This document shows, one piece after another, positions 8,324-22,516 of a stretch of DNA of 32,695 nucleotides (position 1 is the first letter of the stretch; each line of letters begins with the position of its first letter). The DNA is taken from contig NZBG01000010.1 in NCBI GenBank assembly GCA_002687795.1, forward strand, positions 1 to 32,695, read 5' to 3'. The DNA comes from Candidatus Woesearchaeota archaeon. GTDB lineage: Archaea > Nanobdellota > Nanobdellia > Woesearchaeales > GCA-2687795. Both the position numbers and the translations under genes were made by a program. Below the pieces are notes generated by a model. It worked only from the letters and a program-made list of their open reading frames with translations. It searched no databases and was not told the DNA's origin.

Positions 8324-8365
8324 ACCACAGATTTAGGCCCATTATGATTCTGTGGTCACCTTCTT
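8315..8365. repeat. 17-bp perfect inverted repeat around the fic stop codon
   Basis: AAGAAGGTGACCACAGA (8315-8331) / TCTGTGGTCACCTTCTT (8349-8365). Confidence 0.85.
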
Positions 8366-9241
8366 AAGAGTCTTTTTGAATTGGCTTATTAGCAGCCTTA
8401 ACATAGGTTTAATATCATGCAGTTTATCATACTCACGCAAAGCCTTATAGTATTCTGTCCTGTCTTCAAGTGTTATGTTTATTGGAGGATACCTTTTTTT
8501 TATTAATACATAATTAAGCAGAAGCCTCCCAATTCTTCCATTGCCATCCTGGAAAGGGTGTACATGCTCAAACTGGTTATGAACAATCGCTGCAAGCGCT
8601 AATGGCCTGAACTTATTCTTGTTTTCTTTATACCATAAGACAATATCCTGAACAGCTGGTTTTACCTCTTTTGCAGGAACACCTTGGTGGATAACTTCTC
8701 CTTTAGGGTTCCTTATCACAACCTCAACATCCCTTAATTTTCCTGCGAAATGTTTTGAGCTTTCAAAACAAAGCTTATGAAGCTTCAGGACTAGTTTGAG
8801 GGAAAGCTCCTCTTTCGTGCCCCTTATGAACTCAACAGCTTTTGCAACGCCTTTTGTTTCAGTTTCGTCTTTATTAAGGCCTTTTTCTTTTTTTAATATG
8901 CCAGGAACTTCCTCTCTGCGGACAGTTGAACCTTCTATTGCGTTTGTGTTATATACAAAGTCTTCTGTAAACCTTTGCCATTCTTTTGCATTAAGATGCG
9001 CTATTTTGATCTTATCATTGTACCTGTTAAGCTTTTCAAGCTGGGCTTTGGTTAATGAGAAAAAGAAAACCTCTGTGCTCTGCTCTCTGATAATGTTTGA
9101 GATAGCTTCTTTTGCTTTCCTCTTTGTTTCTTCTTTTGGCGGGTTTAACCCTAAGTATTTTCTTATCTTTCTTACCTTTCCATCTTCCCTGTAGGAATGT
9201 ACAAGGTAATATTTCCCGTTTTTCCTTTTTTCAATGTACAT
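8342..9241 (-). CDS. Fic family protein (probable AMPylating class II Fic)
   Basis: Fic motif HPFQDGNGRIGR; inhibitory-helix motif TNAIEG matching [S/T]xxxE[G/N] N-terminal to the core. Confidence 0.93.
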   Translation of the reverse strand: MYIEKRKNGKYYLVHSYREDGKVRKIRKYLGLNPPKEETKRKAKEAISNIIREQSTEVFFFSLTKAQLEKLNRYNDKIKIAHLNAKEWQRFTEDFVYNTNAIEGSTVRREEVPGILKKEKGLNKDETETKGVAKAVEFIRGTKEELSLKLVLKLHKLCFESSKHFAGKLRDVEVVIRNPKGEVIHQGVPAKEVKPAVQDIVLWYKENKNKFRPLALAAIVHNQFEHVHPFQDGNGRIGRLLLNYVLIKKRYPPINITLEDRTEYYKALREYDKLHDIKPMLRLLISQFKKTLKKVTTES

Positions 9242-21243: not shown

Positions 21244-21717
21244 ATGAAGAATACAATCTCAAAGGATACTCCGCTTGCTGAGATAGTTCTGAGAAGGTAT
21301 GAGAAGCCGGATTCTTTTTCTGATAGAGAATTGATAAGAAAATTATGCTTGTCCATAGGATTGCTGCAGCCGGGTGATTCAAGGGATATTGTTGTTGATG
21401 TTTTTTATGTCATGCTTAAGAACAAGGGTAAAGAATTATCCTCAGAAAATATCAAAGAGTTAGTGATAAAGAACAGGAAAGAGTATAATCTTGTCCTGTT
21501 AGGCATTGCTTCTTCTAATATAAGGAGGCAGCTGAAGCGGCTGAGGGATATTTTCCTTATTGAGAAGGTTGCTAACAGCTACAGAATATCTGAGAATTCA
21601 ATGCTTTCGGATATTTTTAAGGAGAAGCTGGAGAGGTTCTTGTTTCCTTCCATTGTTAACAGGGTGAGTGAGTATTTTAAGGTTGTGGATGAGAAGTTTT
21701 ATGGGGAGAGTGAGTAG
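21244..21717 (+). CDS. hypothetical, possibly winged-HTH protein (157 aa)
   Basis: NIRRQLKRLRDIFLIEKVANSYRISE resembles a wHTH recognition region; directly downstream of the surface protein gene. Confidence 0.6.
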   Translation: MKNTISKDTPLAEIVLRRYEKPDSFSDRELIRKLCLSIGLLQPGDSRDIVVDVFYVMLKNKGKELSSENIKELVIKNRKEYNLVLLGIASSNIRRQLKRLRDIFLIEKVANSYRISENSMLSDIFKEKLERFLFPSIVNRVSEYFKVVDEKFYGESE

Positions 21718-21766
21718 GCATTTCCACAATATTTAAATATCCTTTCCGTTTAAGGTATTCTTTAGT

Positions 21767-22516
21767 ATGAATAAAACAAAGATAGCTATATCTATTGACC
21801 AGCCTTTGCTTGAGCTGATTGATTCAAAGGTGGATGGCTCTATTATCAGGAGCAGGAGCCAGGCTATTGAGTTCTTCCTGAGGAAAGGGATTGGTGAGCA
21901 GACTATCAAGGATGCTGTGTTATTAGTGCATAAGAAGGATTTTGGCATGCTGCTTGAGGAGTTCCAGGGGAGCAGGCTGATTGTGAAGCATCTGAAGTTC
22001 CTGATTGAGAACGGCATCAATAATGTTTATCTTGTTACACAGCCGAATGATAAGATCAATGAGATTAATAAGCTGATTTCCGGGCTTAAGGTAAAGGTGA
22101 ACTATGTTTATGAGAAGAATCCAAGGGGAACAGCTTCTGCTTTAAATCTTGTCAGGGATTATCTGAAGGAGAGCTTTGTGGTTATTAACGGGGATACTTA
22201 TAATGAGTTTAACCTAAGAAAGATGATGAATAAGCATGTTAAGTCTAATAAGGTTGCTACAATAGGGCTTATTACCAGCAAAGCGCCGCATAATTACAGC
22301 TCTGTTACGCTTGAAGGGGATAATGTGATTTTTTTCAAGGATAAGGAGAGGACAGAGTCTTTTATTATCAATGCGGGCATCTATATCTTTAAGCCTGATG
22401 TTTTTAATTATCTTAAGGATATCAGCTCATTGGAGAGAGAGGTTTTTCCAAATCTGACGCAGATTAATGAGCTGCAGGGCTATTTTACTTATGGAGTGTA
22501 TAAGCATTTTAGTTAG
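21767..22516 (+). CDS. ribbon-helix-helix domain fused to degenerate sugar nucleotidyltransferase domain
   Basis: RHH KIAISIDQPLLELIDSKVDGSIIRSRSQAIEFFLRKGI; NTase-like EKNPRGTASALNLVRDYL...FVVINGDTYNEFNL...FIINAGIYIFKPDVF; canonical GGxGTRL loop absent. Confidence 0.82.
   Translation: MNKTKIAISIDQPLLELIDSKVDGSIIRSRSQAIEFFLRKGIGEQTIKDAVLLVHKKDFGMLLEEFQGSRLIVKHLKFLIENGINNVYLVTQPNDKINEINKLISGLKVKVNYVYEKNPRGTASALNLVRDYLKESFVVINGDTYNEFNLRKMMNKHVKSNKVATIGLITSKAPHNYSSVTLEGDNVIFFKDKERTESFIINAGIYIFKPDVFNYLKDISSLEREVFPNLTQINELQGYFTYGVYKHFS

Follow-up and report, generated by a model that had tools for sequence, protein, structure and literature searches.

A Predicted Archaeal Regulator of Heptose and Glycan Synthesis Pairing a Ribbon-Helix-Helix Domain with a Degenerate Sugar Nucleotidyltransferase

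What is the role of a sugar nucleotidyltransferase fold that has lost its catalytic loop and lies behind a DNA-binding domain? The question is raised by a 249-residue protein encoded on the forward strand at positions 21767–22516 of the window, the 32,695-nucleotide stretch of Candidatus Woesearchaeota DNA analyzed here (contig NZBG01000010.1). The initial annotation, which had placed the open reading frame at exactly these positions, proposed an enzyme domain recruited into a transcription factor for glycosylation or envelope genes. Regulation in uncultured archaea with tiny genomes is almost unknown, and here sequence alone yields a regulator, an operator, a regulon, and a testable ligand, all of them predicted.

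Domain Organization and Residue Conservation

Homologues, many of them full-length, are present in 72 of 99 order-level relative genomes, whose archaeal and probably DPANN affiliation was deduced from genome size, gene content, and promoter layout, and full-length fusions of a ribbon-helix-helix (RHH) domain with a nucleotidyltransferase (NTase) domain also occur elsewhere across the same class, ruling out a lone oddity of one genome; an assembly or frame artefact is ruled out by full-length proteins of matching length in ~20 genomes. Bacterial RHH matches (L035–L037) were rejected as relatives, being short stand-alone RHH proteins without an NTase domain, and a search of a viral collection found no relatives. 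In the tree, the proteins of the window type form a single branch, clade A (support 100/99), with 19 members, and nine more were found later; genes in relatives are longest-ORF calls, and three later-picked loci that turned out to be B-like (L217, L218, and L225) were left out of the clade A count. Clade B has an intact GGKGTRLRPITYEIPKALIP loop and includes one gene in the window's own genome (G000:C5, locus L004), while clade C has kept the GG and lost the catalytic Arg and Lys. The window protein belongs to a single branch of this class-wide family, other members of which are catalytically intact.

The N-terminal ~45 residues (positions 21767–21901, + strand) have the β-α-α arrangement of an RHH domain, with a basic/polar strand triad (K5-A7-S9) and the N/S-R-S opening of helix B (RSRSQAIE). 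The K-A/S-S triad and RSRS are conserved, the K and SRS columns being invariant in clade A. The Pfam RHH_1 match (residues 8–38, 18.3 bits, E = 0.0023) lies slightly below the curated cut-off of 20.5, and RHH_1 matches 7/19 clade A members; when the family profile of the N-terminal 45 residues was compared with the PDB, the best matches were the nickel regulator NikR (1q5v, 2.7e-5), an antitoxin of the RHH type (6e-4), and another NikR. The remainder (21911–22504, + strand; approximately residues 49–246) is homologous to the Rossmann-like core of sugar nucleotidyltransferases, as indicated by a PF00483 (NTP_transferase) match to residues 67–225 (E = 1.6e-20, 74.2 bits versus a cut-off of 21.2) that recurs in 19/19 clade A members. 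The family profile of this part matches GDP-mannose pyrophosphorylase (7x8j, 1.7e-39) in the PDB, as well as UTP-glucose-1-phosphate uridylyltransferase and the HddC-type heptose pathway enzyme 6jq8 (9e-26). Both halves of the initial annotation, an RHH domain in the first ~45 residues followed by an NDP-sugar pyrophosphorylase fold, are thus borne out, and the motifs on which it had relied (PRGTASAL, VINGDTYNEF, and FIINAGIYIFKPDVF) are all found in the protein. A single-sequence AlphaFold2 model had a mean pLDDT of 35 and is unusable as fold evidence.

The window protein enters the PF00483 profile only at position 29, because the GGxGTRLxPLT...PK start of the fold is missing. Its place is taken by a degraded, shortened NTP-binding loop, AVLLVHKKDFGMLLEEFQGSRLI (21911–21979, + strand); in alignment, AVVLVGGKGTRLRPITYEIPKALIPISGKT of the intact paralog in the same genome corresponds to AVLLVHKKDFGMLLEEFQGSRL, which is several residues shorter. 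That the GGxGTRLxPLT signature is replaced, as first noted from the window alone, holds across the clade: the catalytic P-loop Arg and the PK Lys are each kept in 0/19 members of clade A, in 22/25 of clade B, and in 2/22 of clade C. The second metal-binding Asp is absent from all 19 clade A members, with His at that position in 18 of them, and is lost in clade C too.

Four other elements on the same strand are retained. The G-[TN]-A motif (G121-T122-A123; 22127–22135) keeps its Gly in 19/19 and its Ala in 17/19 clade A members. The metal-binding Asp of the GD motif (D143; 22190–22195) is present in 19/19, 25/25, and 21/22 members of clades A, B, and C, respectively. In F-x-[ED]-K (22334–22345), the sugar-phosphate Lys (K193) is kept in 19/19 clade A members and the Glu in 18/19, the window protein carrying Asp at this position. 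The sugar-pocket motif NAGIY (22370–22384) has each of its Asn, Gly, and Tyr in 19/19 clade A members; NxGxY is kept in about 22/25 members of clade B and in none of clade C. Small extra changes in the window protein are YG to YS and EK to DK. By these residue counts, clade A seems to have lost catalysis and kept its sugar-phosphate pocket.

Heptose Genes and Predicted Operators

In all 17 relatives of the first set with a readable upstream neighbour, this neighbour is divergent from the clade A gene, usually at a distance of 80–290 bp, and is mostly the first gene of a nucleotide-activated heptose operon. Such operons comprise GmhA, HldE kinase and adenylyltransferase domains, GmhB, and HldD, with transketolase/transaldolase in some genomes, and have GT9 heptosyltransferase-type and STT3 oligosaccharyltransferase genes nearby. 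Gene identities were taken from NCBIfam (TIGR02198, HldE kinase; TIGR02199, HldE-C; TIGR00441, GmhA; TIGR02197, HldD), with GmhB and heptosyltransferase models also used. HldE is present in 17/20 genomes with a clade A gene versus 13/79 others (Fisher p = 1.5e-8). The window gene itself is not adjacent to heptose genes; the target predicted for it is on a different contig (G000:C2). The surface-protein genes beside it were rejected as targets, since this neighbourhood is not conserved in relatives; of the earlier suggestion that such neighbours point to control of envelope or glycosylation genes, the control is supported and the adjacency clue is not.

The shared clade A/heptose promoters carry a putative operator just behind the TATA box, either GTATKA-N5-TMATAC or a 10-bp direct repeat, the GTATKA half-sites being inverted with a 5-bp spacer (e.g. 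AGTATGAACTATTCATACT in L047) or direct with a 10-bp period. An inverted site occurs within 200 bp upstream of 14/19 clade A genes and a direct repeat upstream of 9/19, versus a dinucleotide-shuffle mean of 0.005 for each form; the clade A gene of G079 has no operator, and that of G055 is cut short by the end of its contig. In most clade A genes, a pair of half-sites adjoins the start codon. At both the clade A and the heptose promoter the predicted sites follow the TATA box, and in relatives TTTATATA precedes the predicted operator. Paired and arrayed half-sites in 10-bp or 5-bp-spacer geometry would fit the binding of tandem or inverted half-sites, by dimers of dimers, that is expected of RHH proteins.

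At the window gene, a TATA-like element, ATATTTAAATAT (21729–21740, + strand), was placed from its sequence, the archaeal promoter layout, and relatives; TATTTAAATA is followed by a predicted autoregulatory operator, the direct 10-bp repeat GTATTC-TTTA-GTATGA (21755–21770, + strand), which overlaps the ATG. The same layout of TATA box and direct repeat is found in the relative L041, and the generalized direct pattern occurs three times in the 925-kb genome, once at the window gene. Directly upstream and in the same direction lies a 157-residue open reading frame (21244–21717, + strand), for which no Pfam or NCBIfam match was found at the thresholds used.

The pattern for the operator was initially recognized by visual inspection of these same loci, a point addressed by a trans test and by loci fetched later. 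In the window's own genome, the exact inverted motif has exactly two sites. One (C2:10544–10560) lies directly behind the TATA box of a cupin-HldD-HldE operon, the promoter of which contains AAGTATGAATATATCATACTT, with the clade A gene on C10; the other (C5:7926) lies between the clade B paralog and glpX/aldolase genes, so that clades A and B may share operators in this genome. A second genome of the genus (G001) has a single exact site, ahead of GmhA-HldD-HldE, and in both genomes the sequence of the heptose promoter shows four half-sites arrayed at ~10-bp steps. In G067, an exact site precedes HldE, 25 kb from the clade A gene. Across 99 genomes there are 27 exact sites in the 20 with clade A and 30 in the 79 others. 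Taken alone, such genome-wide counts are near background, so the position of the sites, not their number, carries the evidence: 18 of the 27 are at clade A/heptose loci, and the remainder corresponds to the background rate. Among the nine clade A members fetched later, some from families already in the first set and two (G336 and G392) from a family (f38) without a clade A gene in that set, an exact inverted site is present in eight and a direct pair in the remaining one, and heptose-pathway or GT9 genes are near all nine.

Several clade A loci (L038, L043, L044, L052, and others) cluster ADP-heptose genes with GT9 heptosyltransferase-like genes, DUF2304, and STT3, which suggests heptose-containing N-glycans in these archaea. 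At L224:2903–7000 (G392:C6), a heptose operon facing a clade A gene has a B-type NTase gene beside GmhA/GmhB, and the pathway may here be a GDP-heptose (HddC-like) variant. The present loci point to heptose-nucleotide synthesis and to heptose-bearing, STT3-dependent glycans in these archaea, neither of which turned up in a targeted search of open-access literature. In both genomes of the genus, [NiFe]-hydrogenase/oxidoreductase-like genes follow the heptose genes (L116:2767–6543 and L117:7674–11535, as read from the sequence) and may be co-transcribed with them. The heptose-operon leader in each has a hairpin, CCAGTAAATG-loop-CATTTACTGG (L116:10433–10460 in G000:C2; L117:3690–3717 in G001:C4), which occurs once per genome, its stem conserved and its loop changed, though the first gene of the operon differs; it has no match in Rfam, and RNA-level control of the operon through it is possible. 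A Fic/DOC family protein is encoded in the window at 8342–9241 (− strand), and its homologue (L038:10744–11634) directly adjoins the clade A gene in G050.

Proposed Mechanism and Alternatives

We consider it probable that the window protein is an autoregulated one-component repressor that acts on heptose and glycan synthesis and has a pseudo-NTase domain as its sensor; the operon and operator evidence would fit a regulator of this type. Two RHH domains would pair to form a DNA-binding unit reading GTATGA half-sites. Pairs or arrays of these are located after the TATA box and before the start codon, both at the protein's own gene and at the heptose/glycosyltransferase operon; the latter is predicted to make nucleotide-activated glycero-manno-heptose and to encode its glycosyltransferases. 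An RHH dimer or tetramer over the starts of both would repress both. The C-terminal domain, which has lost the NTP loop and catalytic Arg/Lys and kept the sugar-phosphate pocket, would act as a sensor of heptose in phosphorylated or nucleotide-activated form (a heptose phosphate or ADP-heptose) and would alter DNA affinity in response; the most likely ligand would be the pathway product, as a feedback co-repressor.

DNA targeting by clade A is well supported by comparative genomics, which also supports the architecture, the loss of catalytic residues, the operator, the target operon, and the autoregulation site. We infer dimer or tetramer assembly, that the protein represses transcription and does not activate it, and which ligand acts and with what sign; the last three are based on where the operators lie, on the logic of the pathway, and on conservation of the pocket. 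The core idea of the initial annotation gains strong independent support from this comparative evidence, because of the divergent synteny with heptose/glycosyltransferase genes, the operator at their promoter and at the protein's own gene, the recovery of this operator at later loci, and the kept pocket with a lost NTP loop.

There is a modest chance that the same repressor answers to a ligand other than heptose, a general signal such as an NTP, a sugar 1-phosphate, or another NDP-sugar. Its pocket motifs are generic for sugar NTases, and archaeal GlmU and GMPP models outscore HddC on the window-type protein; since such HMM similarity is not specific to the heptose type, the assignment of a heptose ligand rests on the target operon and not on the pocket. 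Sister clade C has the appearance of a regulator even though it has lost the sugar pocket. On the other hand, it is heptose genes, not those of other sugar pathways, with which clade A is consistently paired, and NxGxY and the EK Lys are invariant within it.

A repressor of heptose synthesis is also favoured over a subunit akin to GMPPA, an improbable reading in which the dead NTase binds an NDP-sugar and allosterically controls an intact NTase such as the clade B paralog, with the RHH domain mainly pairing the two and transcriptional control secondary. GMPPA is a dead, GDP-mannose-binding paralog that inhibits GMPPB (PMC11228364), GMPP is the closest PDB relative of the NTase part, and the clade B protein of the same genome shares the architecture, with the same half-site in its operator. 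This, however, leaves the conserved operators at heptose promoters and at the clade A gene unexplained, and clade A genes are divergent from heptose genes, not from the clade B gene, the two lying on different contigs in the window's genome. More doubtful still is a transcriptional activator, to which nothing specific points beyond the fact that divergent regulators can be activators: the operators follow the TATA box and cover the predicted start of transcription as well as the start codon, where bound protein would be expected to block initiation. An active enzyme with an accessory RHH domain, a trigger enzyme like PutA, is very unlikely indeed, for although clade B fusions have an intact catalytic loop, clade A, predicted from its sequences to be inactive, lacks the GGxGTRLxPLT loop, and the P-loop Arg, the PK Lys, and the second of the two metal-binding Asp residues are missing in 19/19 members.

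Related Clades and Known Regulators

Clades B and C differ from clade A in RHH strand triad, half-site, and predicted target. The RHH strand triads are K-A-S (A), R-T-T (B), and K-S-T (C), and the half-site tallies, AGTATGAA, GTATGATA, and GTARGATA, respectively, run parallel to them. Clade B promoters have mainly the direct form (10/25), while in clade C promoters neither GTATKA form was found and a different motif, CTTAC-N6-CCTAC, occurs in 12/22. Clade B genes repeatedly face the class II fructose-bisphosphatase gene glpX, and most clade C genes diverge from a gene of the UDP-glucose 6-dehydrogenase type; given these contexts, the whole family looks like a set of sugar-pathway regulators at varying distance from the ancestral enzyme. 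We lean toward a class-wide archaeal, probably DPANN, transcription factor family in which sugar-nucleotide-making enzymes became sensors at least twice (A and C), each with its own half-site and pathway (heptose and UDP-glucose dehydrogenase), beside the still-catalytic RHH enzyme of clade B, i.e. a lineage between enzyme, trigger enzyme, and pure regulator. An intact, ancestor-like paralog of the enzyme fold turned sensor is still present in the same genome, so the enzyme-to-sensor transition is directly open to study.

NadR and ROK-family proteins are transcription regulators built on metabolic enzyme folds; they differ from clade A in that their DNA-binding domains are of the HTH type and their enzyme folds are unrelated. 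PutA, NikR, and GMPPA come closest as precedents, none of them uniting all these parts, and no description of an RHH-nucleotidyltransferase fusion of this kind was found in the open-access full-text literature. PutA carries an N-terminal RHH domain, which forms a dimer, on an enzyme and is an autogenous repressor of its own pathway (PMC5293562). Clade A resembles it in domain order and in its predicted autogenous repression, but the enzyme part of trifunctional PutA (proline dehydrogenase/P5C dehydrogenase) is active and unrelated, whereas that of clade A is a dead sugar nucleotidyltransferase in an archaeal heptose/glycan pathway; clade B could qualify as a PutA-like trigger enzyme. NikR, the top PDB match of the RHH half, likewise joins an RHH repressor to a C-terminal ligand-sensing domain (predicted in clade A), but its ACT-like domain is unrelated and senses nickel rather than the predicted sugar nucleotide. 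GMPPA, an NTase paralog without catalytic activity, has retained sugar-nucleotide binding and exerts feedback (PMC11228364), and with GMPPB belongs to the solved NTase family closest to clade A; unlike clade A, it has no DNA-binding domain and acts on enzyme activity via protein contact. HddC (D-glycero-D-manno-heptose 1-phosphate guanylyltransferase; 5xhw/6jq8) has the NTase fold for heptose 1-phosphate and a significant sequence match, but is active, lacks an RHH domain, and matches clade A no better than other NTases do.

Further loci of the sister clades were noted. At clade C loci (L171, L178, L181, L227, and others), an operator, TATCTTACCTTTATCCTACTTTATGCGATA, lies behind the TATA box with a UDP-glucose 6-dehydrogenase-type gene divergent. 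Intact clade B fusions divergent from glpX (L004:6957–8875 in G000:C5; L200, L202, and L226) are candidate trigger enzymes, and the operator TATCATACTTTATCATAC is found at clade B-glpX loci in many relatives. At L062:3313–4845 (G086:C40), an RHH-NTase with a part-damaged loop is directly followed by an intact NTase without an RHH domain, a possible regulator-enzyme pair.
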